A stretch of DNA of 64,000 nucleotides, from contig JARCRQ010000072.1 of NCBI GenBank assembly GCA_029850585.1, positions 1-64,000 on the forward strand, in the 5' to 3' direction. Below the pieces are notes generated by a model. It saw only the letters and a list, made by a program, of their open reading frames with translations, did no database searches and was not told where the DNA came from. A program made the position numbers and the translations under genes. Below, one piece after another: positions 9,597 through 33,514 of this stretch (its first letter is position 1; each line of letters opens with the position of its first letter). The DNA is from Sideroxydans sp. Its GTDB lineage: Bacteria; Pseudomonadota; Gammaproteobacteria; Burkholderiales; Gallionellaceae.

Positions 9597-10811
9597 TTAG
9601 GCCTCAATTCTCAAGGGGAAGTAGTGATAAGTGGCTGACCCGACAACGTGACTTGTAATTTCGCTCTCAAAGACATACTGAACATCGTTTTGCAGAATCT
9701 CTTGAAATGCAGCTAATACAGAGTGTTCTGTCTTGTCCGGAAAGGATTCAAATAGCCAACGAAGCGTATCGCCAATAGGTTTGGATTCATGCACCCTGTC
9801 CAAGAGTTCGAATGGGTCTATGTAACGGTTTGCCGACCTGCCGGATATCGATGTTGTAACGAGGGGCTCAGGTGCGGACTGGATGCATTCAGACACACTC
9901 GATAGATAATCTTCCATCGTGCCAGAAGAGATTAGATATTCAGCCCGCCATTTTGAAATGGGCATCTCATCTTGCAGCAACTTCGCTAATGGGCCACATC
10001 CCTCTCTTGCAACTGCATCCAATTGCATACTCACTGCACGGGCAAGGTGGGCATCATGCCGAAGCTGGTTGTACAAGGGGAGTACCTCCTTGAACGCTGC
10101 CGAGAAATGTGAAAGTGCCTCTTTCTCTAGGCGAATCACTGCCGAGTTCAACCTATTGAGCATTTCAGGAATAGTCGGTGCATTAGAAAAAGCTACCTGC
10201 CCCTTTTTGATTACTAGCAGGAGAGCATTCAGGCACTTATCCATTTCGCCGCCTGGATTGATGATTGAGCGCAGCGGCTCGATATGATGCAGGTACATAT
10301 CACTGATGAATTCATAGCGTTCATGCACAGAGCGTTTATCAGTCCGTGCCTTGATTTTCATGACTTCATGAATGACTGCTGCATGACGACTTTCGCTGAT
10401 ATGGCGCACCTCACCTAAGCGATCCTTTACTGCTCTACCGCGTGCGATAACCAAATCAGGAGAGTTGGCTTCGATGGCCTTCTGAAATTCGTTAGTTTGG
10501 TATGCAATGTCTTCAAGTATGGAAATCAAAATCCCTGGAGATGCAAGCCGCTGCCGATTAGACAAATGGCGGAAAAAATCGCCAAAGGCATGTACTAACT
10601 CCCATTCTGATTCAGAACCTGGAGCTTTTTCCAAGATTCCGCACTCCTCAAACAAGGCGAGGATGATCTGCGGAGATCGTTCTTCTTTCGGCACATACTT
10701 CTCAAGCAAATCGCGAAGGTCATTGACCGACACTACAATCTGCTTATCTGCTATGAATTCCAATAGCGGCCAAAATGTCGCCGAAACTGAAAGTGATTTT
10801 GCTGGAGTCAT
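9597..10811 (-). CDS. jetA: Wadjet JetA/MksF-like kleisin subunit
   Basis: 404 aa protein, first gene of the four-gene Mks/Jet-like operon; N-terminal winged-helix pattern. Confidence 0.7.
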   Translation of the reverse strand: MTPAKSLSVSATFWPLLEFIADKQIVVSVNDLRDLLEKYVPKEERSPQIILALFEECGILEKAPGSESEWELVHAFGDFFRHLSNRQRLASPGILISILEDIAYQTNEFQKAIEANSPDLVIARGRAVKDRLGEVRHISESRHAAVIHEVMKIKARTDKRSVHERYEFISDMYLHHIEPLRSIINPGGEMDKCLNALLLVIKKGQVAFSNAPTIPEMLNRLNSAVIRLEKEALSHFSAAFKEVLPLYNQLRHDAHLARAVSMQLDAVAREGCGPLAKLLQDEMPISKWRAEYLISSGTMEDYLSSVSECIQSAPEPLVTTSISGRSANRYIDPFELLDRVHESKPIGDTLRWLFESFPDKTEHSVLAAFQEILQNDVQYVFESEITSHVVGSATYHYFPLRIEA

Positions 10812-10902
10812 TTACTATCTGCTAAAAAATCCAGGTGGCTAGATCCAATTATTCAAAGATACCGAGGCAATGATAATGTGCACTAAGCTCACCAAGTGAG
10901 CC

Positions 10903-11277
10903 TCAAGCCTGAATTTTTTTAACTACCGAATTTGAAAGTTTTACCCAGATTACTGCACCGCTAGGATGTTTATATGGGACTGGCTGTGGTAATCGCTCAA
11001 TGCTCCCCAACACCCAAGCGTAGGTATTTTTGTAGTACGTCGATGTAAGTTCGGAAGATTTACACCCAATACGTTTAGCGTTGTCCTGCATATCCTTGAG
11101 TGTTAGGGGCCCAATTACTTCGACGAGTGCGCAAATTCCAACGACCGTACCCGAGCCAGACTCAATCAGGGCAATAGGGCCTCGAATCTGTGAGCGAGAA
11201 CCACGAAGTTCCCATGTTTTTTTGCCCGCAAAAATGAGTTCCAGAAACTCCCTCTTAATCAATAAAGCACGCACCAC
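10903..11277 (-). CDS. ASCH domain-like protein
   Basis: MVRALLIKREFLELIFAGKKTWELRGSRSQIRGPIALIESGSGTVVGICALVEV matches the ASCH fold pattern. Confidence 0.75.
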   Translation of the reverse strand: MVRALLIKREFLELIFAGKKTWELRGSRSQIRGPIALIESGSGTVVGICALVEVIGPLTLKDMQDNAKRIGCKSSELTSTYYKNTYAWVLGSIERLPQPVPYKHPSGAVIWVKLSNSVVKKIQA

Positions 11278-11301
11278 CTTCTCCCTTGGTATTCAAAAAC
11301 A

Positions 11302-13989: not shown

Positions 13990-15089
13990 TCAGCTTTTCC
14001 CTTGTTCTTTTTTGTGACACGCTTTACCTGCTCGATAGCCTTAACTTCCTTGGTGATCGCCGCCTCAAAATCCTGCTCTGCGCGGCTAGGTGAGGCCAAT
14101 TGCCGTTGCTGGAAGACACCGAATTCCGCTTCTGCCTTGGCTTGTGCCACATCAGCGGAAATTTTTCCGGCATGCGTCAACACCTCGCGGTCAGACAAGC
14201 GCAAGAAATCGTCCAGCTTGGCTATCCAGGCACTCATCGTCATCTCACGCCGGGACTGCGCCTGCAACTCGGCGAACTCCAGATAAGCGTTCACGACTCG
14301 ATTCAGCGTTCCCAGTTCTTCCTCGTTAAGATAATTCTTCGCCACGCTCACGTCCGCCTTGCGCACTGCTGCCCCCTTGGAAGCACCCGCCCAACTGGTC
14401 AACCCCATATTCGGTGCAGCCGCATCGGCACGCATAGAAATCAACTCCGCAGCCGTATGTCCATGTGCTGCCCAGTGCATCTTGTTTTGCATCGTGGCAA
14501 AGAATCGTTGCGAGGCTTCCGCAGAAGGATCGTAATCAATGCTGGTCGCATAGATGTCCAGCACCTTTTTCCAGAACACCTTCTCTGAAGAGCGGATGTC
14601 GCGGATGCGCGCCAACAACTCATCGAAGTAAGCATCGTCCCCACCGCGTTTGAACCGCTCGTCATCCAGCACAAACCCTTTCACCAGATAACTCTTGAGT
14701 TGCTCCGTCGCCCAACGGCGGAACTGCGTCCCGCGATGCGAACGCACCCGGTAGCCAATCGCCAGCACCATCTCCAGCCTGTAGTGAGAAACCCGGCGTT
14801 CCACATTCCGCGCGGCTTCCGTGGCAACTATTAAGTATTCCTTAACAGTTGCCGCCGGGGTCAATTCCCGTTCGGCAAACACATTGCGGATGTGTTGTGC
14901 AATGGCAGGAACACTCACCTGATACAAATCCGCGAGCTGCTTTTGCGTCATCCATACCGCACCTTCCGACATCCTCAACTGAACGCGGGTCTGAGCATCC
15001 TCGGTCTGGTACAGCAGAAACTCCCCGCTGACTGGAGCGCTGGCTGTAGAGGATGGCGCTAAACGGGAAGGCTTCTTCTTGTCGCTCAT
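13986..15089 (-). CDS. RhuM family virulence/DNA-binding protein
   Basis: VWMTQKQLADLYQVSVPAIAQHIRNVFAERELTPAATVKEYLIVA ... YRLEMVLAIGYRVRSHRGTQFRRWATEQLKSYLVKGF. Confidence 0.88.
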   Translation of the reverse strand: MSDKKKPSRLAPSSTASAPVSGEFLLYQTEDAQTRVQLRMSEGAVWMTQKQLADLYQVSVPAIAQHIRNVFAERELTPAATVKEYLIVATEAARNVERRVSHYRLEMVLAIGYRVRSHRGTQFRRWATEQLKSYLVKGFVLDDERFKRGGDDAYFDELLARIRDIRSSEKVFWKKVLDIYATSIDYDPSAEASQRFFATMQNKMHWAAHGHTAAELISMRADAAAPNMGLTSWAGASKGAAVRKADVSVAKNYLNEEELGTLNRVVNAYLEFAELQAQSRREMTMSAWIAKLDDFLRLSDREVLTHAGKISADVAQAKAEAEFGVFQQRQLASPSRAEQDFEAAITKEVKAIEQVKRVTKKNKGKAE

Positions 15090-16792
15090 GCCTCACCCTC
15101 TTCAAATAGACCGCCCTGCGCCGCATTCACCGCGCGCGTTTTCGCTTTTGTTCCCTCGCCCGCTTGCGGGAGAGGGCTAGGGTGAGGGGCTTGCGGCAAA
15201 TTCTCCACCTGCAACGAATAATCGTCATGCCCCCACTCGCAGCGCGTCAGCACCTGCTTGGGAATCTTCTTCACGGTAAGGTTCGGGTAGTCGCCCCGCC
15301 CACGGAAAGCGGTGCACAACACCAGCAGACTACGCTCCGCCCCCACCTCATCGGAAAGCTGCTGCAACTGCTCGTGATTCAGGTTCGCCGTGGTGACGTA
15401 GATAAAATCCCGCTCGGTGGAATGCCCGTGCATCCAGTAATGTGCATCGCTGGGCGCATAGGTGAAGCCCTCCAGCTTGCACAAGGCTTGCGCCAGCATC
15501 TCCGCGTTGTATTCCTTGTTGATCACCCACTGATTGTGCGCATCCTGCCGCAATAGACTGGGCGCGAGTTTGTAATAACGGAAACCGCCGCCCCCTTGCC
15601 AGTTCACCGCCTCGGAAATGCCGCCCTTATCTTCGCCATCGATCACCTTTTGCAGGCGCGGGATGATGTGCGTGTGGCAATGCTCGCCCAGCTCAATCAT
15701 GATCCAACGGCGACCCATCTTGTGCGCGACCGCACCGGTGGTGCCGGAACCAGCGAAGGAATCGAGGACGAGGTCACCGGGGTTGGTCGAAACACCGAAA
15801 ATGCGCGAAATTAAATCCTCCGGCTTGGGCGTTTCAAATTGTGTAACGTCTCCGAATATAACTTTCTGATGAGCTTTAGTTTGTCGTGTTGTATCTAAGT
15901 CGGCCCAAATAGTTGGCCATGGGCGAGAAGGTGAATCTGGAGCATATTCCCTTGTATAAGGAACCCAGCGGGTGACACCGTTTAATTCGCGCTGCTTCCA
16001 AACCAACTCACCTTTTGCTATAACCTCATCAACACCCTTCTGCCCCATAGCCCATCGAGCTTCTTGCCCATCATCATGGATCGGAAAAACATCAATGCCA
16101 TCTGGCCCTTTGATTGGGAAATACATTGATGGACGATCAGATCGCAGGCTATTTTTTCCATTCTTTTTCAATAGCCGATCACGGTACGGCCTGTCAGACT
16201 CGGCATCAGGCTGACGATAAGCATTAAGAATCGAATCATCTTGCTTCTGCCTGAAGCGAGCACCAGCGGGTACTTTAGAAAAACAGAGTACATACTCGTG
16301 ATCTGGTGACAAAGCACCTTTGTTATCGTTTGGACTATCTACTTTTTTCCAGATAAAGGATGTTACAAAACATGCCCGCCCAAACACCTCGTCGCACAAC
16401 ACCTTCAGGTAATGCGCCTCGTTGTCATCAATCGTGATCCACAGCGAACCATCCTCCGACAGCAACCGCCGGATAATCTCCAGCCGGTCGCGCATCAGCG
16501 ACAGCCAGATTGAATGCTCCACCCCGTCGTCGTAATGCGTGAACGCGCTGCCGGTGTTGTACGGCGGGTCAATAAACACGCACTTCACTTTCCCCGCTAA
16601 CTCCGCCTCTAAAGCCTTCAACGCCAGCAAGTTGTCGCCGAAGATGAGCTGGTTATCGAAGATGTCGCCATCCGTCACCCGATGCTTCGCGTGATAACTC
16701 CTCGCCGCATCTTCCAGCAAAATGCGCGGCTCCAACTTTGGCCGGTTCTCCTTGCCGATCCAGGTTAGTTCAAGTTTCTGTTTCTTGTTCAT
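15086..16792 (-). CDS. site-specific DNA methyltransferase, type III Mod-like
   Basis: FIDPPYNTGSAFTHYDDGVEHSIWLSLMRDRL and DLVLDSFAGSGTTGAVAHKM (beta-class amino-MTase order). Confidence 0.92.
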   Translation of the reverse strand: MNKKQKLELTWIGKENRPKLEPRILLEDAARSYHAKHRVTDGDIFDNQLIFGDNLLALKALEAELAGKVKCVFIDPPYNTGSAFTHYDDGVEHSIWLSLMRDRLEIIRRLLSEDGSLWITIDDNEAHYLKVLCDEVFGRACFVTSFIWKKVDSPNDNKGALSPDHEYVLCFSKVPAGARFRQKQDDSILNAYRQPDAESDRPYRDRLLKKNGKNSLRSDRPSMYFPIKGPDGIDVFPIHDDGQEARWAMGQKGVDEVIAKGELVWKQRELNGVTRWVPYTREYAPDSPSRPWPTIWADLDTTRQTKAHQKVIFGDVTQFETPKPEDLISRIFGVSTNPGDLVLDSFAGSGTTGAVAHKMGRRWIMIELGEHCHTHIIPRLQKVIDGEDKGGISEAVNWQGGGGFRYYKLAPSLLRQDAHNQWVINKEYNAEMLAQALCKLEGFTYAPSDAHYWMHGHSTERDFIYVTTANLNHEQLQQLSDEVGAERSLLVLCTAFRGRGDYPNLTVKKIPKQVLTRCEWGHDDYSLQVENLPQAPHPSPLPQAGEGTKAKTRAVNAAQGGLFEEGEA

Positions 16793-16828
16793 ATGTGTTC
16801 TATATAGTGGCGACTGGGCACAAGCCCA

Positions 16829-17497
16829 TTATTTACCGGTTGATCCACCCGATGTAGCTGTCGGAGCTACTGGCGCAGGTTGTGGGACCTGTTGCATCGT
16901 GGGCACGGGAGCCCCAGATTGAGGGACGGTTTGCATAGCCGGTATATTTGCCCCTCTCCGCTCTACTCCCAAACCGCGAGCAACGTTCTGCATAGTGGGA
17001 ACAATGGCCCCATCATTAGCACGAATTTTCGACATGACATTTCCTTTTCCAAGGTTGATAAATACATAAATACACGTTACCAGTAAGCCAACAACGAGAA
17101 GCACAGCACCTGCGCGATTAAGCAATTCAGTAATTGAAGCATATTCTGGTTGCAAATTAGCGGCCCCCTCATCATGCTCAATATAGTATTTGTGTGCCAA
17201 ATCGAGTTGCTCTGCAATTGCCTTTTGACTTGTAAAAAATGAAAGCAGCGTAGCAACAATTGCAGCCGGAAAGAACACCCACGACAAATACAGCAACCAT
17301 GAGTAATCAGCCGTTTGAATCGGTACAACATCCTTCAAAAACGCCAAGGAAAAACCTAGTGCCGCAGTCGATACTGTCAAAATTGCTCTATCAGCATTCT
17401 CGCTATTTGAAAGCTGACGTTTGAGAAGATCGGCCCGCGTTTCGCCATAAAATTTCAGGCGAAGCTCTTGATCGGTAGATTGTGCTTGGTCAGTCAT
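16829..17497 (-). CDS. membrane protein with TM helices and a proline/VPTMQ-repeat tail
   Basis: Two hydrophobic segments plus C-terminal VPTMQNV...IPAMQTV...VPTMQQV repeats. Confidence 0.6.
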   Translation of the reverse strand: MTDQAQSTDQELRLKFYGETRADLLKRQLSNSENADRAILTVSTAALGFSLAFLKDVVPIQTADYSWLLYLSWVFFPAAIVATLLSFFTSQKAIAEQLDLAHKYYIEHDEGAANLQPEYASITELLNRAGAVLLVVGLLVTCIYVFINLGKGNVMSKIRANDGAIVPTMQNVARGLGVERRGANIPAMQTVPQSGAPVPTMQQVPQPAPVAPTATSGGSTGK

Positions 17498-17532
17498 CTG
17501 CTACTTTTGCATTTTTTGTCTCGGCAAAGCAA

Positions 17533-17745
17533 TTAGGCTCTTGCATACCGATAAGAGCCCTTAATCTGTTGTGCTAGATATTGCCCCTTGGATGGCGCAT
17601 TGCGCATTCCCTCAAAGACGTGCTGTGGCACGTCGAAGTAATCGTATTGACCACCATTCTTAAATTCTACTTTCAGAACATTGCTTGCTTCGTCATAGGC
17701 GAACCTAGCAATATTCGAAGATTCCGGGGTATCTATCCAGTCCAT
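17533..17745 (-). CDS. KTSC domain protein
   Basis: SSNIARFAYDEASNVLKVEFKNGGQYDYFDVPQHVFEGMRNAPSKGQYLAQQIKGSYRY. Confidence 0.85.
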   Translation of the reverse strand: MDWIDTPESSNIARFAYDEASNVLKVEFKNGGQYDYFDVPQHVFEGMRNAPSKGQYLAQQIKGSYRYARA

Positions 17746-17748
17746 TGC

Positions 17749-19680
17749 TTACTCCTTTTTATCATCAGGTTTCGGGGATGCACCAACTGCAGGAGACTTG
17801 TGCTCATAATGCGGCGTCTGCAGTCGCCACTGTCTAACCATCGCAGTATAGTCAGCAGGGTCGCGGCGCTGCCCCCATCCACCCGGCCCCTGAAATCCCT
17901 CATTCAAATTGCCACGTTCAACAACACGAGGATCAACACTGTCAGGACGACGATCAAGAGCCGGAGGTGTAATCAAAGTTCGCACAGGAAGGCTAACCGC
18001 TTCACCAACGATAATCGCCTCGCCAGTTCGAAGAACGGGCAACATCTCAAATATGCCTTTTAAATTATCGGATGCGGCACTAGTTATGTGCCCCCTATCT
18101 GTGTCATTCGTAAGGCGCATCGCGAATATCGTGCCGCACTGTGAAAGTATGGTCGAATCTATTTCGGATGGTCGTTGACTGACGATCATCATGCCGACGC
18201 CATATTTTCGACCTTCCTTGGCAATCCTTCGAACAGCGGTCGCTGCTGATCCGGAGTGCTCCTTAGATAGATAAGCATGTGCCTCTTCAAGAACCAACAG
18301 CAAAGGGCGCTCCCTACCACCCTCTGGCAAATTCCTTGCCCAGAAAATTGCGTCATACAAAACCCGCAATAGCGCACCAATCAACTCGTTAAGTATAGAT
18401 GTTGGTATTCCAGACAGATCAAGAATGGTTATTGGATTTGTACCGCCAACCCATTCTTCAAGCATGCTGTCTAAATCTTTTACTGTTTTGCCATCAATAT
18501 CTGGCAGCCAGCCACCAGGATTAAATATAAAGGCCAGCCTCGGATCGCGCAGCTTTGATGCCAAACTGGCAAGCTGCTGCCTGATTCCAATTGGATCTCT
18601 ACCGTGTTGAACTCTTTCATTTGCGGGGCCAGTGGTTTTCACTGTTCGATATAGTGGCGGTATCACTGACATTGCATCGCCAAGTTGCTGAGGTTGATTA
18701 TCTTCCCCAAGCACATAGGCTGGATCAACTTCGTCAGTTGCCCCACCCGGCCTTGGAATAAGCGTGTGATGCTCCCGCTTGTGAAGTTCGAACCATAATT
18801 TATGCAAACAAAATGGTATAGGTGTATCAACGGTAACCCGTGACTCATCAATCTCATCGCACGGCTGATTAGCAAGTCCCTCTTTCTTGAGCTGCACGAT
18901 GTAATCCGCAACAACTGCCATCGCAGCATCACTCAGCTTGCCGAAAGCAAGCGTAACGAGCTCATCAAAACTCAATGCCCAAAACGGTACAAAAAATTCC
19001 TTTTGTCCTTTGGCCGAATTGGGATCAACTCTGAAAACTACGGCCTTGTCTGATAATGCCTTGGAATACTCTCCGTGAATGTCGAACACGAGAATTCTTG
19101 AGGATGGGTAAAGCGTTAAGTCCGATAGTGCATTCAGCAACCCGGCTACCGTAGTTGATTTCCCTGATCCTGTTGTTCCGACAACAGCAGAATGGCGTGT
19201 AACAAGCTTGTTAATATTGATAAGTGATGGAATTGACTCAGCACTTGCGAGATGTCCCACCGACACATAGTCCTGAGGATCACCTGAGCCATAAATCGCC
19301 TTAAGGTCTGCTTCAGTAACAATGTGGACGCGGTCGTCAATAGTAGGATGTTGAGAAATACCACGGTCAAATCGCCCGCCTCGCTGCCCTTCGCCGACCA
19401 TCTGCACCTTAACCCAACGATTGCCATAGACTTTAAGCTCTTGTTCACTTTCTGGTGCGGCACCTGCCCCGACTTGGGAAACAACGCCATATAAATCAAC
19501 AAATCCTAGAGGGATACGCACAAAGCTACCGACTTGCCCGACTCGGTAACCCTCCCCGTACACAAACCCAAGCCCGGTAACTGTCTCGTCGCTCAACTCA
19601 ACCGTGATGGTTGCGCCGTGAACGTCTTGGACAGTTCCTATGAATGTAGGATCACGTAGCATTTGTTCCCGCCTGCTCAT
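17749..19680 (-). CDS. HerA-like ATPase (DUF87/HAS-barrel)
   Basis: VVGTTGSGKSTTVAGLL, ILVFDIHGEY, LLVLEEAHAYL, VSQRPSEIDSTILSQCGTIFAMRL; preferred start at internal ATG 19680. Confidence 0.92.
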   Translation of the reverse strand: MSRREQMLRDPTFIGTVQDVHGATITVELSDETVTGLGFVYGEGYRVGQVGSFVRIPLGFVDLYGVVSQVGAGAAPESEQELKVYGNRWVKVQMVGEGQRGGRFDRGISQHPTIDDRVHIVTEADLKAIYGSGDPQDYVSVGHLASAESIPSLININKLVTRHSAVVGTTGSGKSTTVAGLLNALSDLTLYPSSRILVFDIHGEYSKALSDKAVVFRVDPNSAKGQKEFFVPFWALSFDELVTLAFGKLSDAAMAVVADYIVQLKKEGLANQPCDEIDESRVTVDTPIPFCLHKLWFELHKREHHTLIPRPGGATDEVDPAYVLGEDNQPQQLGDAMSVIPPLYRTVKTTGPANERVQHGRDPIGIRQQLASLASKLRDPRLAFIFNPGGWLPDIDGKTVKDLDSMLEEWVGGTNPITILDLSGIPTSILNELIGALLRVLYDAIFWARNLPEGGRERPLLLVLEEAHAYLSKEHSGSAATAVRRIAKEGRKYGVGMMIVSQRPSEIDSTILSQCGTIFAMRLTNDTDRGHITSAASDNLKGIFEMLPVLRTGEAIIVGEAVSLPVRTLITPPALDRRPDSVDPRVVERGNLNEGFQGPGGWGQRRDPADYTAMVRQWRLQTPHYEHKSPAVGASPKPDDKKE

Positions 19681-20872
19681 CACTCGTCCGTGATAATTGT
19701 TGTGCCAAGAAATTGCCAAAGTTCTTGAAATCCCCCAGCATGAACTCGCAGTTATTTGAGACTGCTTCAGTTTTATCTGCTGCCGTTTTCTTCGTAACGC
19801 TTATTCCATGTAAAGCATGGCTTGTTTGTTCGTCAGCCCGCCAGTCTCGCTCAACGGTTCCAAGGACAGCACCATCAGCAGCCAAAAGACTCAGGTTAGG
19901 ATGCATACGTGCCTTGTCCAAAGCATCTGCGTATGATGAGCGTTCGCCAAAAAGCAGACCAAAACAAATTGCAGTCGGATTGCTTCGCAACCCATGAAGA
20001 ATAACTTCATTCAAATGTTGGTCGGCAAAAGAGTACCCGGACGTCACCAGCACCGCCTGACCCCGTGCAAGAAAATCACGTAGTCGGTCGAGCATTGCCA
20101 AGTACGGCATACGACGACTCTGATCATACTTCAGGTGTGATGGATAAATCATTTGCCGATCACCTTCGGAATGATTTTCGCGACGTACAACTTCATCCTT
20201 CTGTGTACGCCACCAGTTCACAGAACCATGCACTTTCCAAACACGCGCCCATCGCGAAGGAAGAGATTCACTTTCCATCGAAGTTAGGTCGAAAAAGGCT
20301 TGCTTTGACCCAACAAAACCATCAAAGAATGGAATTTTGTGAAATTCCAATGCCTGCTCTACAAGCAAATCGTAGTTAGGGGTAAACACTTCAATCGGAT
20401 GTGCACGATGAATACCACCTATCCATGTTGCAAGCTGATGGTATGGCGTACTCAATTCAGGCAACTCGACGCCTACTACTTCAGTGGTGATTTTGCATAT
20501 TTCTGTATCGAGTGCCGCAAGCGTGCTCTTAGTGAGACCGTCAATATTGCCATCACGCACAACATCGTGAAGCGCACGAATATGGCTCAGGATGTCTTCA
20601 ATCGTCGGATTGACTGGCATCCCACCATTGAACCGTTTCAACAATGTGGCATAACTGTCCTTATATTGTTTCGACTTGCTCAGCTTTTCGTTAACTATAT
20701 TGGTGAGTCCCCGAATGTCTGGGATCAATGGCTTTGAGGCCTCTCCATCCGGAATACGGATCGAAACTGGGCAACCCGCCCCCAACAGAAATGCGATCCG
20801 CATTTTATCCGGCGCAAGCGCCTGCTGAAGAAGAGTAGATTGTCTATATGGACAGTGCGTTGAAGAATTCAT
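19652..20872 (-). CDS. SIR2-like (NAD+-binding) effector
   Basis: FLLGAGCPVSIRIP, FTPNYDLLVEQAL, KVHGSVNWW, VTSGYSFADQHLNEVI. Confidence 0.88.
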   Translation of the reverse strand: MNSSTHCPYRQSTLLQQALAPDKMRIAFLLGAGCPVSIRIPDGEASKPLIPDIRGLTNIVNEKLSKSKQYKDSYATLLKRFNGGMPVNPTIEDILSHIRALHDVVRDGNIDGLTKSTLAALDTEICKITTEVVGVELPELSTPYHQLATWIGGIHRAHPIEVFTPNYDLLVEQALEFHKIPFFDGFVGSKQAFFDLTSMESESLPSRWARVWKVHGSVNWWRTQKDEVVRRENHSEGDRQMIYPSHLKYDQSRRMPYLAMLDRLRDFLARGQAVLVTSGYSFADQHLNEVILHGLRSNPTAICFGLLFGERSSYADALDKARMHPNLSLLAADGAVLGTVERDWRADEQTSHALHGISVTKKTAADKTEAVSNNCEFMLGDFKNFGNFLAQQLSRTSDEQAGTNAT

Positions 20873-22170
20873 ATATTTTCCAATCTTGTTGTTGCGTCGC
20901 TTGCAGTCACCAGTGCATTTAATTCCAACCCCTCAATTTCCTGCAACGATTTCCCCGCAATACCCTGCAAGTCGCCATACATCCCCACTGTCGCTCCCAT
21001 CACCCGCTCAATCTGCTCTTCGCGTTTTGCCCATTGCTTCATGATTGCTTTGCGTTCTTTGTCGAGGTCTTCCTGCATGGAAGAAAAGGCTTCAACAATC
21101 GCTTCGACACGATGCTTGAAGCGCGGGCCGGTGAGGTACTGGTAAACCATTTCGGTTTTGGTTTGCTGGCCTTCGGATGACTGCCGTGACATCGCAATCT
21201 CTAGCAATGTCTGGCGCAAGATTGCCGCAACTGGCAATGCCGCACGCGGATGCGTTACCCACACACCCTCAATCAACTCGAAAGTTTCCACGCCTTTGGG
21301 TAGCACGTGGCTGACGATCACCGCAACTTCGGCCTTTGCTGTGCGCTGATCATCGCGCAGTTTTACCAACCAGGCATCGCTCCAATTTTTTGTGCGTTTG
21401 AACTCCCACAAGATAGTGCCACTGGCTTGTCCATTAGGTGCACGCACGCGATGCAAAACATCGCCGCCGAATTCGCCCTTGGGGACGGGCTCAATCGAAT
21501 CGAAGGGAAACTTGGTGCGCAGCAGGTTTTCCAGTTCCAGCTCTTGCACTTCGCCCTGCAATTGTTGTGACCCCTGCTCCGCCCTGCGCTTGAGTTCTTC
21601 GATCTGTTTCTGCATGGCGGAAATGGTTTGCTCTTTCTCCATCACCTTGAGCTTCTGTTCTTCCTCAGCTTCCTTTTTGGCGAGCGTGCGCACTTCAGTT
21701 AATCCAGTCTGCACACGCTTTTCCACGGTGAGTTCCAACTCACGCTTGGCATCATCGAGCTCACGCTGTTTCTTGATTAGACCCGCCTGCGCCTTTTGCG
21801 CTTCAGCTAATTTGGCATTGTTACTATTCAGGACTTCTTGTAACTCGGACAGCTCGCGTGCCTTGTTTTCTAATTCGGCTGCACTAGCCAGTTTGGCTTT
21901 CTTGGACTCTTCCGCTATCACACGGACGCGCTCAGCTTTCAACTGCGCCGCGACTTGATCGGCAACTTGGTCGTCGAGCTTGCGCTTATCCTCTACAAGC
22001 TGCTTTTCCTTGTCGCGCATCGCCTGTTCGCGCTTTGCGATGTCTGTGTCTTTCTGCGCGAGTTGCTCCTCAAACTGTTTGCGCGTTGCTGCAATCAGCG
22101 GTGCCGCGAGCGATTCGTTGAGTTTGATTTCAGTATGGCAATTAGGGCAAACGATTGTTGGTTCTGTCAT
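20869..22170 (-). CDS. DUF2130 domain protein
   Basis: N-terminal zinc motif CPNCHTEIKLNESL, coiled coil, C-terminal GTILWEFKRTKNWSDAWLVKLRDDQRTAKAEVAVIVSHVLP nuclease-like core. Confidence 0.85.
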   Translation of the reverse strand: MTEPTIVCPNCHTEIKLNESLAAPLIAATRKQFEEQLAQKDTDIAKREQAMRDKEKQLVEDKRKLDDQVADQVAAQLKAERVRVIAEESKKAKLASAAELENKARELSELQEVLNSNNAKLAEAQKAQAGLIKKQRELDDAKRELELTVEKRVQTGLTEVRTLAKKEAEEEQKLKVMEKEQTISAMQKQIEELKRRAEQGSQQLQGEVQELELENLLRTKFPFDSIEPVPKGEFGGDVLHRVRAPNGQASGTILWEFKRTKNWSDAWLVKLRDDQRTAKAEVAVIVSHVLPKGVETFELIEGVWVTHPRAALPVAAILRQTLLEIAMSRQSSEGQQTKTEMVYQYLTGPRFKHRVEAIVEAFSSMQEDLDKERKAIMKQWAKREEQIERVMGATVGMYGDLQGIAGKSLQEIEGLELNALVTASDATTRLENI

Positions 22171-25148
22171 GCGACCTCCCATTCACAAGCAAATAATGGC
22201 TGCACAGTCACCTGTTGCGACAACTGCACTTCCAGTTCATCAATTAACTTATCGCGGCGACGCTGAATCTCATCTTGCCGATCAAATAGCTCGCGGCGTT
22301 TGCGATCTCGATTATTTTCATGATTTCTCTGCTCTTTTTGCATCGCAAGTTTTTCGGCCAAAGTTGCCGCACCTTTGCTCTTGGTGCGCGCTTCCTTAAT
22401 CAGCTTATCGAGTTCTTTAATCTCGCGCTCCAGACCGACTTTAAGATCATCCGCCCATGAATCCAGCTTCTCGGTTTCTTGTGCAAAGAAACTCAAGTTG
22501 CGTGTTTCAAGTTCACTCAAGATGTGCACTCTTTGTTTACTTATCACCGCCTCCAGTGCGGCAGGTACAGTTACATTCGCAGCGGAAAAATCGAGCATAT
22601 TCTGTTCAGCAACCGGCTGAATATCCGGTAAAGCTGACTGCTCTGGCAGGCTATGTAGGCGCGGCAGCGCAATGGCATGAGCGGGCATATTGAGTAGTTT
22701 TTCAACGATGCCTTGGTCATAAGTCACGTCACTGGAGTCTACCGCCCCCATGAGTATATGTTCTTCAGTTGCACCTAATGCCTGCACTCTTAGCTTTTGT
22801 ACGAACAGCGTTCCTGATTGCCCCCTTAGCTCTTCTACTACAGACACCTTTGCCCCATAGACATCGTAATCAAAGACTAACTTGCTAGGCTGCAATGGCT
22901 GATGTTGAGCGTGCTCGACAAGCGATTGCGCCAGCGGATGCGCCAACCGGTAGATGTGCGCCTCTTGGCTGCGGCGTGGCAATTCATATCGGCCAAGTGG
23001 AATGGCAGGCGAAAAGTCTGCCTTTAGACCATCTGGCAGGGTGAGGAGTTTGAATGCGGTATCGTCTTCATCAAACTCAGCATGACCATTCAGTGCAGCT
23101 CGCGTGAATCTCATCAACAAGCGTTCTAACCTGCCTAGGGAGGCACGGGCAGTTTGATCGCGTAGACGCAGCCTTTCTTGCACGTCCTCATCAAAGTTTT
23201 CAAGGAGCGACTTACGAGCATTGATCATTGCATCACTAATCTCACCCGCCAGATCAAGCTGGAGTTGCTGGAAGGCGGTGTGTATCGCATCGGGATGACG
23301 GCAGGTTTGGTATATCTCGGCGATGCGACGCTCAAAGTCCACACCGGACTCGACTGCCCCCAGCACTTCATCGCTTGCGCCGAATACACCATCGAACAGC
23401 TGGAACTTCTGCGCCAACAATTCGTACACACGCTTATCAGCTTCATTCTCTCGGTTCAGGAAATTGACTACAACGACATCGTGTTTCTGCCCATAACGAT
23501 GGCATCGACCGATACGCTGTTCGATGCGCTGTGGATTCCACGGCAAGTCATAGTTAATGACCATCGAACAGAACTGAAGGTTGATTCCCTCGGCTCCCGC
23601 CTCGGTGGCAATCATCAGAGAACCTTCTTCACGGAAGTAATCTACTAATGCCGCTCGTGTATCTGCCGTCCTTGATCCGGTTACGCGGTCTGTGCCCGCA
23701 TGCCGCTTGATCCATTCGCTATAGATACGGCGTGATTTTTCATCATTGTTCGTACCATTGAAGAGAACAACTCCGGACGTTCCTTCTCCAAACTCAGGTG
23801 TACTGGCTAGCAGGTTAAGCAGATAGTCTTGGGTGCGCCTTGATTCGGTAAAGATGATGGCCTTCTTGGCAGCACCCAATTCTTCCAATTTTTTGAAGGC
23901 GACCTTTAAAGCTTGGAGCAACGCCATACCCTTGGCATTTTCCGTGATCGATACAGCCAGACTACGGAAAGATTCCAACTCAGCGATTTCAGCCTTGATG
24001 GAGGCAATCTCGCTTTCTGTTTTAGCCTTGCCGTTAATCTGGTCTAAATCTTCGATCTCTTCTGTCATCTCATCGAGGGATTCGAAGTCTTGATCTAGCT
24101 CTACGGCTAAATCTACGCTGGCCGCCTTCTCATCCAATGCAAGCTGGAGCCGCTTGATCAGTGTTTCCAGCGCACCGGCTATCGCAAATGTTGATGATGC
24201 CAAGAGCTTACGAAGCACCAAGGTGATGAGTTGACGCTGGCTATTAGGTAATGCGAATAGAGAGTCGCGTTGCAGATATTCAGAGACTAGGTTGTAAAGC
24301 CTGGTCTCGTCTGCACCCGCCATAAACTCTTCCAGCATAGGGATGCGGCGTGTGTACTTAACATAGGCTTCAACCTGTCTGCGCAGCGTGCGCTTACAGA
24401 TGGGCTGTATGCGGCTCTTTAACTCATCAAAGCTAGCAGCATCTTTAAGCTGGCCGAATTGGGTCTTGAAACTATCCAAATCACCGAAGACGCGGTCATC
24501 CACGATACTAACCAAACCATACAACTCCAACAGGGAGTTCTGTAATGGCGTGGCCGTGAGTAATATCTTCTGAAAATTTGATAATGCATCCCGCAGAATA
24601 TTGGCGGTCTTATTGTCGGGTTTGTAAACATTACGCAGGCGGTGGGCCTCGTCGATCACCACTAAATCCCAGGGAACGGCTTGGAGCTCCTTGGCTTTTC
24701 CTGCGGCAAACTGATAGGAACAGATGAGAACAGTCTTGGCCTCGAATGGGTTGTCGTTCCCATCCTTGATAGCCTGCTTGTAGGATTTAGCTTCGATAAT
24801 GGCCGCAGTGATGCCAAACTTGTCAGCTAGCTCTTGATGCCATTGTTTGCGCAGATTGGCAGGGGCAATGACCAGAATTCGGCGCTTACGCTCGGCCCAA
24901 CGCTGAGCGATCAACAACCCCGCCTCGATGGTTTTACCCAGCCCCACTTCGTCAGCCAGGATAACGCCCTTGGAGAGCGGATTGCTGGTTGCGAACAATG
25001 CGGCATCGATCTGGTGTGGATTCAGGTCGACCTGCGCATCCAGCAACGCACCTGCCATGCTCTCCATCGAGTCCGAAGCTGCGCGCAGGGTTAATTGGTG
25101 CGCGAAATAGCTTAGCTGATGAGGACTATAGAGCAACGAACTGGTCAT
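22167..25148 (-). CDS. SNF2/RapA-like helicase
   Basis: ILADEVGLGKTIEAGLLIAQRW, LVVIDEAHRLRN, LLTATPLQNSLLELYGL, NYDLPWNPQRIEQRIGRCHRYGQ. Confidence 0.93.
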   Translation of the reverse strand: MTSSLLYSPHQLSYFAHQLTLRAASDSMESMAGALLDAQVDLNPHQIDAALFATSNPLSKGVILADEVGLGKTIEAGLLIAQRWAERKRRILVIAPANLRKQWHQELADKFGITAAIIEAKSYKQAIKDGNDNPFEAKTVLICSYQFAAGKAKELQAVPWDLVVIDEAHRLRNVYKPDNKTANILRDALSNFQKILLTATPLQNSLLELYGLVSIVDDRVFGDLDSFKTQFGQLKDAASFDELKSRIQPICKRTLRRQVEAYVKYTRRIPMLEEFMAGADETRLYNLVSEYLQRDSLFALPNSQRQLITLVLRKLLASSTFAIAGALETLIKRLQLALDEKAASVDLAVELDQDFESLDEMTEEIEDLDQINGKAKTESEIASIKAEIAELESFRSLAVSITENAKGMALLQALKVAFKKLEELGAAKKAIIFTESRRTQDYLLNLLASTPEFGEGTSGVVLFNGTNNDEKSRRIYSEWIKRHAGTDRVTGSRTADTRAALVDYFREEGSLMIATEAGAEGINLQFCSMVINYDLPWNPQRIEQRIGRCHRYGQKHDVVVVNFLNRENEADKRVYELLAQKFQLFDGVFGASDEVLGAVESGVDFERRIAEIYQTCRHPDAIHTAFQQLQLDLAGEISDAMINARKSLLENFDEDVQERLRLRDQTARASLGRLERLLMRFTRAALNGHAEFDEDDTAFKLLTLPDGLKADFSPAIPLGRYELPRRSQEAHIYRLAHPLAQSLVEHAQHQPLQPSKLVFDYDVYGAKVSVVEELRGQSGTLFVQKLRVQALGATEEHILMGAVDSSDVTYDQGIVEKLLNMPAHAIALPRLHSLPEQSALPDIQPVAEQNMLDFSAANVTVPAALEAVISKQRVHILSELETRNLSFFAQETEKLDSWADDLKVGLEREIKELDKLIKEARTKSKGAATLAEKLAMQKEQRNHENNRDRKRRELFDRQDEIQRRRDKLIDELEVQLSQQVTVQPLFACEWEVA

Positions 25149-26886: not shown

Positions 26887-27174
26887 TTACTCTTCTTTTG
26901 GAATAACCCTCTCACGCAATTCCTTACCCGCTTTGAAGTGCGGCACATACTTCGCAGGGACTTTCACCTGGTCGCCGTTCTTTGGATTCCGTCCTAGGCG
27001 AGGTGGACGGTAGTTAATCCCAAAACTACCAAAGCCGCGAACCTCAATACGCCCACCGCATGCCAGCGCGCCAGACATAGCATCTAGTATGGTTTTAACG
27101 GCAAGCTCTGCGTCCTTGGCAAGCAGTTGAGGGTGTAGCTCGGCTAGGTGAACTATGAGGTCAGATCGGTTCAT
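26887..27174 (-). CDS. HU/IHF family DNA-binding protein (IHF beta-like)
   Basis: [88 protein letters not shown]. Confidence 0.93.
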
Positions 27175-27300
27175 ACTGGGATTGATTTATTGGTCAACAG
27201 AATGCTGGGTAAAGGGCTGACGCTGGATTCTACCCTGCCTCGCCAGTACGTCACATCAATTGCTTGCGCGTTCAGCATGTTGAGAGTAGATTTCGCCCTG

Positions 27301-27364
27301 AGCCGATGACGCTTTGCAAGACCCTGGGTAATTACAGCCCAGACGTTGCAAGGAATTGTCGGCT
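27301..27364. repeat. 64-bp hairpin repeat, copy 1
   Basis: agccgatgacgctttgcaagaccctgggtaattacagcccagacgttgcaaggaattgtcggct. Confidence 0.85.
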
Positions 27365-27850
27365 TTTTGCATTTTGGTTATCACCGTAGTATTGAATGTT
27401 GACCTATAACGATGAGTTGGCCAAATCCGGTGGTAATTTATCATTGGATGAATACAAGCGTTTGTACCAGGAACAATGCCGTCACGATTTCACAGCCGGG
27501 ATTGTTTCTAAGGAATCACCGATTAAACATGTTTTTTCGTCCAGATAGTTCCCAAGCAATATCACCATAGTTTTTGCATCCACAACATGATTACGCTTTA
27601 AGGCAACAACCATATCTTCAACTTCATCCGTTAAACATCATCACCCGACAAACGCGTGACCGTTTCAGCCCATTCGTCAGCATAGGTTTTGACATAAGTC
27701 ACACTGCAAGTCCCGCGATATATTCCTTTAGCCCAGAGGCAGGGATGTCGGTAATTTCTGCAAATGAAACTGGTTGATTTTTCATAGTGTCGCTAAAAAA
27801 TAAGTGCACCGAATTGCATGGCAAGCAAGTTAAGCGTACATTTCGACCTG

Positions 27851-27914
27851 AGCCGATGACGCTTTGCAAGACCCCGGGTAATTGTAGCCCGGACGTTGCA
27901 AAGAGTTGTCGGCT
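27851..27914. repeat. 64-bp hairpin repeat, copy 2
   Basis: agccgatgacgctttgcaagaccccgggtaattgtagcccggacgttgcaaagagttgtcggct. Confidence 0.85.
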
Positions 27915-27956
27915 TTGTTTATTCCCGCTTTCCAATCGACACCATTCCGCAACACA

Positions 27957-28172
27957 TCAAGTTGCCTTGGATATTACAAAAAGTGATTCAGCTTGAAGTA
28001 GTGCAACAATAGCCTGTTCCTGTCCCAACGTAGGATAGGAGTCCAAAATTTCATCCAGCCATAATCCATCAGCCAGGTTTTCAAATAAAGCTGCGACAGG
28101 TACGCGGGTTCCCGAAAACTCAGGGCTCCCTCCAAGTATTTCCGCATCCATCGTTATCAGCTGCCCAGCCAT
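27957..28172 (-). CDS. DUF433 family antitoxin-like protein
   Basis: GGSPEFSGTRVPVAALFENLADGLWLDEILDSYPTLGQEQAIVALLQAE matches the DUF433 pattern. Confidence 0.85.
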   Translation of the reverse strand: MAGQLITMDAEILGGSPEFSGTRVPVAALFENLADGLWLDEILDSYPTLGQEQAIVALLQAESLFVISKAT

Positions 28173-28240
28173 ATTGCCCTCTCCGTGTTATATTTACAGC
28201 AACTTGCACGGCCAGTTGGATGTGTGTATCTTCATGCCTA

Positions 28241-28304
28241 AGCCGATAACGCTTTGCAAGACCCTGGGCAATTGGAGCCCAGACGTTGCAAAGAATTGTC
28301 GGCT
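28241..28304. repeat. 64-bp hairpin repeat, copy 3
   Basis: agccgataacgctttgcaagaccctgggcaattggagcccagacgttgcaaagaattgtcggct. Confidence 0.85.
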
Positions 28305-28308
28305 TTAT

Positions 28309-29019
28309 TTATTCCAGTCTTCCAATCGACACCATTCCACCATACATATCTGACACACCGCGCAAGCCTACGCCATGTGCACTGAAGCCTAAAGACTCCT
28401 CATAAGCTGCATAGTTGAGACGATCATGGTGGTGGCCGTGAAAAGCGAACTTAACCCTCATGCTCTGTGCCAACACATCGATCCCTTTAAACCCGTTGGG
28501 ATGACAGGATGGAGCCTCGTGCGTCACTAAAATATCTGCTTGCTGTCCGAACAACCGCATCCAGTCATCCCAGAAAATAGTGCTTTTGTGCAAGAGTGCA
28601 TCGCCCACCAAAGGTGGTGCCATGCCCTGACCTACATCCATCGTTTTTTGGATATAAGTTTTGTAATCCGGGTACAACGGTTCGATTTCGGCACTTGCCT
28701 GTGGATACCAGATTGATTCCCTAAAAATCCCACCCAATCCGGCCACGCGCAACCCATCAATTTCGACAACACGGCCATGCAGATTCTTGTCCGCTAAGGC
28801 AGATTCAAAAAGGTTGTCATAATCGGTTTTACTGTCTGTGTCGTGGTTGCCATGAATGAAATAGACTTCAGTCAGCCTCATCACCTCCACGAACTCTTGT
28901 TCAAGTGGATGTTGCGCTTGCAGATCCCCCAAGAAAATAATGGCAGCAGGCTGTTCTGCCTGTACCATCGGCAATACGTGACTAAAGTCGCTGTGAACAT
29001 CTCCAAACATGAGGATCAT
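28309..29019 (-). CDS. metallophosphoesterase 1
   Basis: MFGDVHSDF, FLGDLQAQ, IHGNHDTD, VTHEAPSC, FHGHHHDRL. Confidence 0.88.
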   Translation of the reverse strand: MILMFGDVHSDFSHVLPMVQAEQPAAIIFLGDLQAQHPLEQEFVEVMRLTEVYFIHGNHDTDSKTDYDNLFESALADKNLHGRVVEIDGLRVAGLGGIFRESIWYPQASAEIEPLYPDYKTYIQKTMDVGQGMAPPLVGDALLHKSTIFWDDWMRLFGQQADILVTHEAPSCHPNGFKGIDVLAQSMRVKFAFHGHHHDRLNYAAYEESLGFSAHGVGLRGVSDMYGGMVSIGRLE

Positions 29020-29059
29020 CGGACAGACTCAGACTCATGAGTAAGGTGTAGTGATGGAT

Positions 29060-29809
29060 TCATATTTCCACCACCAACTTTGGATTGAACTCGAAGTTTT
29101 CCGAACCGCGATAAGTGACATATCCACGAGGATTACAGATAACACGCGTGCCGTTGGCCACGTAATCCAGATTGTCGTGCGTGTGTCCGTGTATCCACAT
29201 GCTCATCTTGCCAAACAGGTGATCCAAGTTGGATGCGAAGCAAGCCGAGAGCGCACTATCTTTAAACCGTTCAACGACAGAAAGTGCTGACGGCAAGTGA
29301 TGCGTCACCACAACAGTCTTGCCATCGAATGGCGTGTCGAGTTTTTCAGTCAGCCATGCCAATGACTGCTCGTGCAACTGTGTGGAAAGTAGTGGTGTGA
29401 AGAGCATGATCCCTTCGTGAATCAGACGAAAATCATTCAGGCAATTCTGCCCGTCCATCATGACCTCATTTTTCTTGTGCTCGCCGAACAGCAAAAAGTC
29501 TGTCCATAGCGTGCTTCCCAAAAATCGCACGCCATTGATCACAACTTCATCGTCATCGAGTAGATGCACTTTGCACTGCTCGGCAGCAAGCCGCATCAAT
29601 ACTAGCGTGTCTTCACGCTGAGCACCGTAGAACTCATGGTTGCCAGGAACATAGATGATTTCCTTGTCGGGAAACTTTTCTCGCGCCCATATGATGCCGT
29701 TGGATTTCTTGCCGATGTCGCCAGCCAGCACAACCACATCCGCATCGGTTACAAATGGTTCAAACGTCGAGAACTCAAGGTGTATGTCACTCAGTATGTA
29801 CAGTTTCAT
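29060..29809 (-). CDS. metallophosphoesterase 2
   Basis: ILSDIHLEF, LAGDIGKK, VPGNHEFYG, VTHHLPS, IHGHTHDNL. Confidence 0.92.
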   Translation of the reverse strand: MKLYILSDIHLEFSTFEPFVTDADVVVLAGDIGKKSNGIIWAREKFPDKEIIYVPGNHEFYGAQREDTLVLMRLAAEQCKVHLLDDDEVVINGVRFLGSTLWTDFLLFGEHKKNEVMMDGQNCLNDFRLIHEGIMLFTPLLSTQLHEQSLAWLTEKLDTPFDGKTVVVTHHLPSALSVVERFKDSALSACFASNLDHLFGKMSMWIHGHTHDNLDYVANGTRVICNPRGYVTYRGSENFEFNPKLVVEI

Positions 29810-30477
29810 AGGTTCAATTTCAGAACGTCGCTCGGCACATTCCGTGCTCCTAGACGCTCCTCATCTGCAATAGCGCGCTGAATATCCTCAACGGTGTAGG
29901 TCGTTTCAAGATGTGGTGCCGCAGACTGTTCGTTGTGGTTTTGATTGGTCAATTTGTGCTGATTCAGAAACTCACCGAAGACCAAAGCCACTGCCTCTGA
30001 AAAGGCTTCATCGCCTTTCAGAATAAACAGGTTGTCCGGTGGATTTTCAGTATCGTCCCAAAAAAGCTGCGCCTGGTCATCCAAAGCGATCCAAGGCTCA
30101 CCAGCCAATCCGTTTCCCTCAAGATAGGCCAGCACCTCGGACAACCTTGATCCCACCCCACCAAACTTATCGCAAAGCGGGGTATGTCCGATCACACGGT
30201 CGGCAAGCGTAGCGGGCAAAAACTGCAAGAGTTTCTCGGGACGGAAATGCTCACGCCATGTCGATGAAATCACGATCCGCACATTCGGAAACGGCTCAAG
30301 AGCGGCGGCCAGCCGATCAGCATGCTCAAACATATCCTTACCCTTGACCAGCTTACCGTCGCGCGTCAGGAAGCGGGCCTCATGCGCTTTGAGGTAACGC
30401 CGCGCGGCTGGTGGGCAACGTTTCACGGTGACATTTTCGTGGTGTAGCACGCCATCGAAATCTAGAAAGAGAATCAT
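29806..30477 (-). CDS. HAD phosphatase-like protein 1 (resembles HAD domains of RNA-repair proteins)
   Basis: MILFLDFDGVLHHENV (DxD motif), VRIVISSTWREHF, WIALDDQAQLF. Confidence 0.8.
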   Translation of the reverse strand: MILFLDFDGVLHHENVTVKRCPPAARRYLKAHEARFLTRDGKLVKGKDMFEHADRLAAALEPFPNVRIVISSTWREHFRPEKLLQFLPATLADRVIGHTPLCDKFGGVGSRLSEVLAYLEGNGLAGEPWIALDDQAQLFWDDTENPPDNLFILKGDEAFSEAVALVFGEFLNQHKLTNQNHNEQSAAPHLETTYTVEDIQRAIADEERLGARNVPSDVLKLNL

Positions 30478-30902
30478 TGAAGTCTCCCCAGAATGGCCGT
30501 CACGTCACTCTCAGTCAGCCCTCGACCACCATCAACAACATAGAGATTGGGATGACCACCATTGAACAGCGCAGGTATATCGTCAATTGCGAGCCACGCG
30601 CCGACTTGGTCGTTAGCATCTAGCCAGCGTTGGATTTCAAAATCGCGCCGACCGTACCGCCCTTCCCCTTCAAGGTTCGGTATCGAGCCGATAATTCTGT
30701 GTGCGAGATCTTCGCCACCGCCGCTAGTCACGAACCCCACCATTTCAATCTGGCTGTAATTGTCACGCCACGAGGTTGAGAAAACCACTTGTACAGTTGG
30801 ACACGCACGCAATATTTTCCACAGCAATTCATTGCGACAGAAATCTGGCTCGTGCCGTAAATGCGGATGGAGTACACCGTCGAAATCAAGAAACAAAATC
30901 AT
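30474..30902 (-). CDS. HAD phosphatase-like protein 2 (paralog)
   Basis: MILFLDFDGVLHPHLRH, VQVVFSTSWRDNYS, AWLAIDDIPALF; start chosen at 30902 giving an ATGA overlap. Confidence 0.8.
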   Translation of the reverse strand: MILFLDFDGVLHPHLRHEPDFCRNELLWKILRACPTVQVVFSTSWRDNYSQIEMVGFVTSGGGEDLAHRIIGSIPNLEGEGRYGRRDFEIQRWLDANDQVGAWLAIDDIPALFNGGHPNLYVVDGGRGLTESDVTAILGRLQ

Positions 30903-31402
30903 TTTTTCGTCCCCTTCCATGCCAGCCACGCCAGTCGATTCGCCCGAGCATCATCCAGCGCATGATGACGGCACAAACGCGGAATATGAGTTTGATACGC
31001 CTCTTCAACCGCACGTTCTAAAAATGGCGAATCCACCATTTCATATAACTGTACCGGCTTACCATCGAGGTTTTTCGGCCAAGTACCCGGCAAGTAAAAC
31101 AGCTCCTGAATCCAAGGCCAGTCCCAGGACAAGGAATCGGTGACGAGTTGCACCGGCTGATTGAAGTCCTCAATCCAATTGCCAAGGCGCAAGGTCAGCT
31201 CGTCCATCGTCATCAGTGCCTCACCGCCCTGCAAGTGCGGCAACACCGCCTCGTAAACAAATGGCTCGCAAGCAGATACTTGATAGGTGTCTGAGAGCTC
31301 GGCGTAGAAAGTCCGTTCGCCATCCTCGGCAATCATCCCGATAGAGATCAGTTTCGGATCAAGGATCAAACCTGAAAACTCGGTATCAAAGAAAATCAGC
31401 AT
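30899..31402 (-). CDS. DEDDh 3'-5' exoribonuclease-like protein 1 (Rv2179c-like)
   Basis: MLIFFDTEFSGLILDPKLISIGMIAEDGERTFYAELSDTYQ ... CRHHALDDARANRLA. Confidence 0.82.
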   Translation of the reverse strand: MLIFFDTEFSGLILDPKLISIGMIAEDGERTFYAELSDTYQVSACEPFVYEAVLPHLQGGEALMTMDELTLRLGNWIEDFNQPVQLVTDSLSWDWPWIQELFYLPGTWPKNLDGKPVQLYEMVDSPFLERAVEEAYQTHIPRLCRHHALDDARANRLAWLAWKGTKK

Positions 31403-31656
31403 GATTTGCGCGGAAAACAAACGACCTGCTCACTCTGTTCACCGGGTTCGGCGTGAGATAATTCACCCTCATAGCTCCACCGATCCTCTGGTAGCCATCC
31501 GCTTAATAGTTGAGAGGGATTAATTGGCTGCCAAGGCCGGACAGTAATTATGCGGAGATCACAGACCACATCAAACCCACACTCGTAACCATTCACAACC
31601 ACGCGCATTGACGGGTCTAGTTCAGACAATCTTGCAATTAACTCAGCAACAGTCAT
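31396..31656 (-). CDS. hypothetical protein (86 aa) within exonuclease cluster
   Basis: MTVAELIARLSELDPSMRVVVNGYECGFDVVCDL; overlaps neighbours in coupled fashion. Confidence 0.6.
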   Translation of the reverse strand: MTVAELIARLSELDPSMRVVVNGYECGFDVVCDLRIITVRPWQPINPSQLLSGWLPEDRWSYEGELSHAEPGEQSEQVVCFPRKSC

Positions 31657-31657
31657 T

Positions 31658-32169
31658 TCATCTTCCTTTCTTAACAGCGAACTTCCAGGCAAATGCCAAA
31701 CTGCGTGCATCTTCCAGTGCGTGATGTTGGCGTGCGATCTTGTCCTGCCAATACGACTGCATACCTAGGTTGTAACGGTGGAATTGGCGCGGCTCTTCAA
31801 ACTGGATAGCCCCACATTTTTTACGCAGATTTGTCGGCCACCCGTTGTGGTCAAATATCTCCTGGATGAACGGCCAGTCTATGGTTGGTGCATCGCTGCG
31901 TAGAACCACTTCCTTATCGGTCAGCCCCTCGATCCATATCTTGAGACGCGCGGCCATTTCCGATACGCCCATGCTGCAATCCCCACCTTGCAATAGCGGA
32001 AAAACGGTGTCGATGACAAACATAGAGCAAAGATGCTCATCCCATGTGTCTGTGAGTTCCGCATAAAACTCGCGCCCGTCCTGGGACACACAGCCAATGC
32101 TGATGAGGTATCGGTGTCCATTCTTATCAGCTTGCATATTGGCAAACTCGGTATCGAAAAATACTTGCA

Positions 32170-32170
<1 letters not shown>
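31658..32170 (-). CDS. DEDDh 3'-5' exoribonuclease-like protein 2
   Basis: [43 protein letters not shown] ... ARQHHALEDARSLAFA; TAATG junction at 32170. Confidence 0.82.

Positions 32171-33514
<1,344 letters not shown>

Follow-up and report, generated by a model that had tools for sequence, protein, structure and literature searches.

Solitary copies of a candidate hairpin RNA family, otherwise found opposite phage MuF_C genes, beside a defence island in Sideroxydans

What are three nearly identical palindromic repeats, set between short genes at a single bacterial locus? The locus lies in a 64,000-nucleotide stretch of a Sideroxydans sp. contig, hereafter the window, where a sequence-only reading had described three 64-bp structured repeats in the same orientation and had matched them to no known family. 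From the comparisons below, the repeats are most likely stray, or orphan, copies of a previously undescribed hairpin RNA of about 65 bases that would have its own gene opposite a phage MuF_C gene. Taken as a whole, an origin in phage-derived RNA genes working in partnership with MuF_C seems to us rather probable. That the repeats belong to a family of RNA genes is very probable, and that MuF_C is the partner of the RNA is a tentative proposal, somewhat more doubtful than not.

The three copies are 91–92% identical over 64 nt and spaced by 390 and 550 bp; the size given earlier fell slightly short, the paired region extending one base farther on each side (Table 1). The change from CTGGG/CCCAG to CCGGG/CCCGG in copy 2, with pairing kept, is real. 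On the + strand, each copy forms one long hairpin of 64–66 nt with three helices and a 7-nt loop, with folding energies of -34 to -39 kcal/mol and z scores of -7.2 to -8.1 against dinucleotide shuffles, none of which (0 of 200) folded as well. Several of the pairs are G.U, which gives the + strand the more stable fold of the two strands. The sequence-only reading had overlooked these G.U pairs, and with them the upstream promoter-like hexamers, the T-rich tail and the sharp stop of conservation at the 3' end of the hairpin. The loop carries a palindrome (CAAUUG / UAAUUA), so that a kissing-loop dimer may be considered. In the whole genome, three hairpin copies were found, all at this locus.

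Table 1. Positions of the hairpins, their promoter-like boxes and adjacent features in the window, and the boxes of five phage or MuF_C loci
Feature	Position	Strand	Remark
Hairpin RNA copy 1	27300..27365	+	followed by TTT
Hairpin RNA copy 2	27850..27915	+	followed by TGTTTATT
Hairpin RNA copy 3	28240..28305	+	followed by TATTTATT
Promoter-like hexamers, copy 1	27264..27292	+	TTGCGC (27264-27269), 17 nt, TAGATT (27287-27292)
Promoter-like hexamers, copy 2	27814..27842	+	TTGCAT (27814-27819), 17 nt, TACATT (27837-27842)
Promoter-like hexamers, copy 3	28204..28232	+	TTGCAC (28204-28209), 17 nt, TATCTT (28227-28232)
HU/IHF-like gene beyond copy 1	26887..27174	-	same gene beyond the single copy in G037
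Stretch of ~41 bp resembling the 3' end of the phosphoesterase gene 28309-29019	27916..27956	-	between the DUF433 gene and copy 2
DUF433 gene	27957..28172	-	3' end faces copy 2
Calcineurin-like phosphoesterase gene	28309..29019	-	3' end faces copy 3
Boxes of L142			TTGACA-N17-TACTCT
Boxes of L143			TTGACA-N16-TATAAT
Boxes of L144			TTGACA-N17-TAGAGT; apical part different
Boxes of L150			TTTACT-N17-TATAAT
Boxes of L151			TTGACA-N15-TATATC

Among the checks proposed with the sequence-only reading were a covariance-model search of related genomes and a look for recurrence at gene 3' ends. The first recovered further members with covariation, far outside the window too, and upheld the pairing constraint; as to the second, the copies stand convergent to the 3' ends of adjacent genes. 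A DNA search of 101 genomes returned one copy each in G037, which matches a contig of Gallionella sp. STB_51, and in G021, which matches a contig of Ferrigenium altingense AG11. The G037 copy is flanked by the same HU gene and, on its other side, by a different phosphoesterase gene, and the G021 copy sits after a HAD gene, its outer stem exchanged for GCGG/CCGC by compensatory changes. A covariance model (R1) built on these two copies and the three of the window reached a further copy in another genus (G495, E 9e-21), as well as one in G480 (L127, E 5e-4) that was kept as a probable member only. Among the orphan copies compared, the RNA is 88–97% identical and the next 43 nt are 26–42% identical, except between copies 2 and 3 (81%), one of which arose by a local duplication that took in the flank.

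Other searches were less productive. A scan of the genome contigs with the Gallionellaceae core pattern gave 64 matches, of which the two known relatives fold like the family and all the others look like chance; in a scan of the order, a match in G277 (L096) appears to be a GC-rich chance hit. A blastn search of plasmids and phages with a window copy gave no match.

In the window, a frameshifted short gene lies between copies 1 and 2 (27530-27786, minus strand, MKNQPVSFAEITDIPASGLKEYIAGL...), and a row of HAD (Swiss Army Knife type), phosphoesterase and 3'-5' exonuclease-like genes occupies 28309-33514. In G037 and G021 too, the orphan hairpins come after HAD and phosphoesterase genes.

Each repeat looks like a stand-alone RNA gene, with promoter-like boxes 7 nt upstream and a T-rich tail. 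The window boxes share a sigma70-like consensus, TTGCRY-N17-TANNTT, which ends 7 nt before the first paired base, and their position relative to the hairpin is constant in the three copies, G037 and G021 (TTGC.. and TA..T., 17 nt apart); in G021, whose stem is shorter by 6 bp, the boxes moved inward with it by 6 nt. The boxes of G495 read TTGACT-N15-TATATT. The orphan promoters score just 7 out of 12, low enough for the sites in the window to have been passed over by a simple scan for promoters and terminators. The T-rich tail, missing from G021, is the least conserved part of the element. Transcription from such a sigma70-type promoter would start on the + strand at the first base of the hairpin and end in the T-rich tail, releasing a hairpin RNA of 65–66 nt.

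The connection with phages emerged when IMG/VR was scanned for the apical 19-mer. The scan yielded eight contigs representing seven distinct cases, L129 being the same site as L095; all seven are recognized by R1 (E 1e-8 to 1.5e-4) and share the hairpin fold, with outer stems that are unrelated yet complementary. The hairpin of L095 (G342) falls inside a coding region. In six of the six proteins tested (L131, with its short frame, was left out), the phage hairpin runs antisense to the reading frame of a large phage protein and lies immediately downstream of the part encoding its MuF_C domain (PF18819). As the 19-mer scan selects on DNA, later loci were chosen by protein alone: Escherichia phages PhiR5_2, PhiR12_3 and phi296, Pasteurella phage Pmp11, and genomes found via PF18819. 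The phage genes and most of the large MuF_C genes inspected have the hairpin with promoter-like boxes, its covarying outer stems different from those of the window and its loop of the AAUUGGA type. In L142 and L143, the protein motif GLQLP, encoded by the loop region on the other strand, is lost but the loop (G/A)AUUGGA and the stem are retained (AATTGGA in L143), so that RNA and not peptide is conserved there.

The hairpin was not found at the MuF_C genes L146-L149 (further MuF_C copies of G802), L153, L158 and L159, nor at those of the Glaesserella plasmids L162 and L164; L154, L161 and L163 were counted neither as positive nor as negative. After their MuF_C gene, the two Glaesserella plasmids carry two tandem TAGTCCT..CGCTCTACTTGCTAAGTCC-like units, perhaps another RNA partner. 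A single-protein MuF_C search for related loci in IMG/VR recovered the query contigs only. In L152 and L128, a tandem pair of hairpins follows a single MuF_C domain and GLQL(P/S) is encoded twice; in genome G860, CRISPR-DR4 repeats lie upstream of the MuF_C gene (L143, 1-230).

Smaller genes show the same association. MuF_C-like genes that encode about 150 aa and have an opposite-strand hairpin at the 3' end occur in G050, G052 and G015, which belong to the window's own genus, and on a 3.7-kb Aeromonas veronii plasmid, LT635657. The hairpin is convergent to these solo genes. Across the phage and solo loci its boxes are TTGACA and TATAAT-like, one pair being perfect. Between the Aeromonas plasmid and the Gallionellaceae solo loci, about 37 noncoding core bases are identical bar one base in one sequence, and the outer stems differ and compensate. 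Window copies have the three helices, a 7-nt loop of the AAUUNNA type and sigma70-like boxes whose end lies about 7 nt ahead of the stem, without the opposite-strand MuF_C gene that is present at the phage, plasmid and same-genus loci. They are orphans in that their genome has no detectable MuF_C gene; PF18819 gave no match in the orphan carriers G000 (the window genome), G037, G021, G495 and G480, all incomplete drafts.

Neither the hairpin nor the promoter is explained by protein coding. The null model shuffled synonymous codons within each gene; hairpin coordinates had been picked after inspection of the sequence, and the region test takes the best window in real and shuffled sequence alike. 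The antisense hairpin is stronger than in the shuffles, with a combined p of 8.5e-12 for 12 loci and 3e-7 for the six picked by protein, and the promoter score exceeds them with p values of 1e-8 and 6e-5, respectively; the combined values are approximate since the six loci include related phages. At control positions 300–450 nt away, the mean z ranges from -0.6 to 0.2, compared with -3.3 at the site itself. The T-rich tail of the phage copies does not go beyond codon expectation (p 0.06). Across 23 members, outer-stem pairs 1–7 are paired in all 23, with several Watson-Crick types each, as are apical pairs 1–3; the RNA strand is the better-folding one in 17 of the 23 (Wilcoxon p 0.005, approximate because the members are related).

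How, then, might the RNA and the domain be connected? The family would have originated in phages, its RNA gene lying on the other strand of the MuF_C coding sequence, just past the domain, and the RNA would act with the domain as a bound partner or an inhibitor. MuF_C has been placed in the PBECR RNase-like clade and may bind or cut RNA; the version of phage Mu has been called inactive and probably RNA-binding, and active orthologues are predicted RNases (PMC5512222). Our AlphaFold model of MuF_C is poor (pLDDT 51), and the RNase-like fold is therefore taken from that study. Given this fold and a tightly linked, conserved structured RNA, an RNA–protein pair is the simplest reading. It would offer a candidate protein partner for the RNA, and would open the role of MuF_C to experimental test.

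Type III toxin-antitoxin systems (ToxIN, CptIN, TenpIN) suggest themselves as a parallel, a structured RNA gene being tightly linked to an RNase-fold protein gene in both. Both occur on phages, plasmids and chromosomes. The type III RNA consists of tandem repeats upstream of the toxin on the same strand, and it inhibits an endoribonuclease toxin. In the putative MuF_C pair, one hairpin stands by itself, encoded opposite the gene and within or at its 3' part. MuF polymorphic toxins and polyvalent proteins represent the protein side of the pair (PMC5512222, PMC5576092), and term searches met no antisense, sRNA or hairpin in the first paper and no antisense in the second. Literature searches, with most subscription journals outside their reach, returned no paper describing such an RNA.

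The foremost alternative, possible though on balance doubtful, is that a stable antisense transcript controls the overlapping MuF_C mRNA in cis, through translation or RNase III decay, the orphans being relics or acting on other mRNAs. The phage RNA gene does overlap the mRNA in antisense, its co-location with MuF_C could reflect control in cis, and phage antisense RNAs are known, STnc6030 among them (PMC12197685). As in that RNA and in type I toxin-antitoxin systems, the candidate RNA lies opposite coding sequence with promoter-like and terminator-like signals of its own. However, its loop and core are conserved beyond the needs of antisense pairing, across phages and plasmids with unrelated outer stems; in solo genes there is little or no overlap between the hairpin and the end of the coding sequence, and even so the hairpin core is better conserved than the protein; and orphans retain the RNA without a complementary MuF_C gene having been found. 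Nor is the neighbour a small hydrophobic toxin peptide of type I; it is a MuF_C domain, either about 150 aa long or embedded in a giant protein. The prophage sRNAs Pas and AgvB of pathogenic E. coli are likewise small RNAs on lambdoid phages with terminator-like 3' hairpins; the portions of the sources at hand place the Pas sRNAs beside capsid, tail or esterase genes, largely confine them to Escherichia and Shigella, and describe no Pas or AgvB sRNA as antisense to MuF_C genes (PMC13192938, PMC12197685).

Less probable still, and in our opinion unlikely, the repeats could be fossil pieces of a phage MuF coding region, duplicated locally and devoid of present function. Their minus strand still encodes SRQF(L/F)ATSGLQLPRVLQSVIGSG, like phage-like genes, the frame of G495 continues into KIYSDADLVKYR, and copy 1 carries a stop in the SRQF(L/F) frame. 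Conservation nevertheless ends at the hairpin ends and spares the structure rather than the frame, the flanks are randomised and the stems change by compensation. Plain intrinsic terminators of + strand transcription would account for a strong hairpin followed by T-rich sequence, and are very improbable with no evident + strand gene reading into the hairpins, promoter boxes directly before them, a tail that is their least conserved part and a conserved loop that termination does not need.

Known repeat families fared no better, in line with the sequence-only reading: no Rfam family reached its gathering threshold, and three copies at one locus are not the many dispersed copies of a REP or MITE. 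Integron attC-like sites or other hairpin DNA elements moving gene cassettes can be dismissed almost entirely, for although these palindromes, imperfect and about 60 bp long, come after short genes in a tandem, cassette-like layout, with different genes before the hairpin in relatives (the single G037 copy included) and an integron integrase encoded in the genome, the boxes R'' RYYYAAC and R' GTTRRRY are absent from every copy on both strands, the genome's real attC sites differ, no integrase stands beside the repeats (the only over-cutoff IntI among the matches listed is on contig C30, not C72, of a fragmented assembly) and in phages the copies occupy a single position within one gene instead of separating cassettes. 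That integrase is complete and lies near a contig end (G000:C30:68509-69450, L089). Canonical attC-like sites accompany it in L089, around positions 12441-12515 and 12877-12953, and the resident attC has CTAAC..GTTAG.

Under the preferred reading, an unannotated family of RNA genes would be hidden within phage coding sequence. Prophages are among its carriers, in about 8% of the complete genomes of E. coli (422 of 5426 have a match to both of two queries), and the RefSeq annotation of the two E. coli sites inspected lists no RNA.

The window orphans may have been left behind, or recruited without MuF_C, beside a defence island (6314-25148) that comprises a type III restriction-modification system with a RhuM gene between its genes, a HerA-SIR2 pair, a DrmD-like helicase with DUF2130, and an LmuB-like protein. 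The restriction system, the HerA-SIR2 pair and the helicase all lie within about 16 kb of the repeats. As context, this neighbourhood makes a role of the orphan RNA in immunity attractive, and orphan RNAs could neutralise MuF_C effectors delivered by phages or plasmids. A toxin-antitoxin-like version of the proposal, in which an RNase-fold effector gene of the phage carries its RNA partner on the opposite strand and bacteria keep solitary RNA copies in defence islands against the injected effector, is a speculative extension that we regard as having a limited chance of being right. Defence islands might then contain anti-phage elements made of RNA only. In G037 as well, a defence gene, encoding a type IIG enzyme, is found near the hairpin copy.
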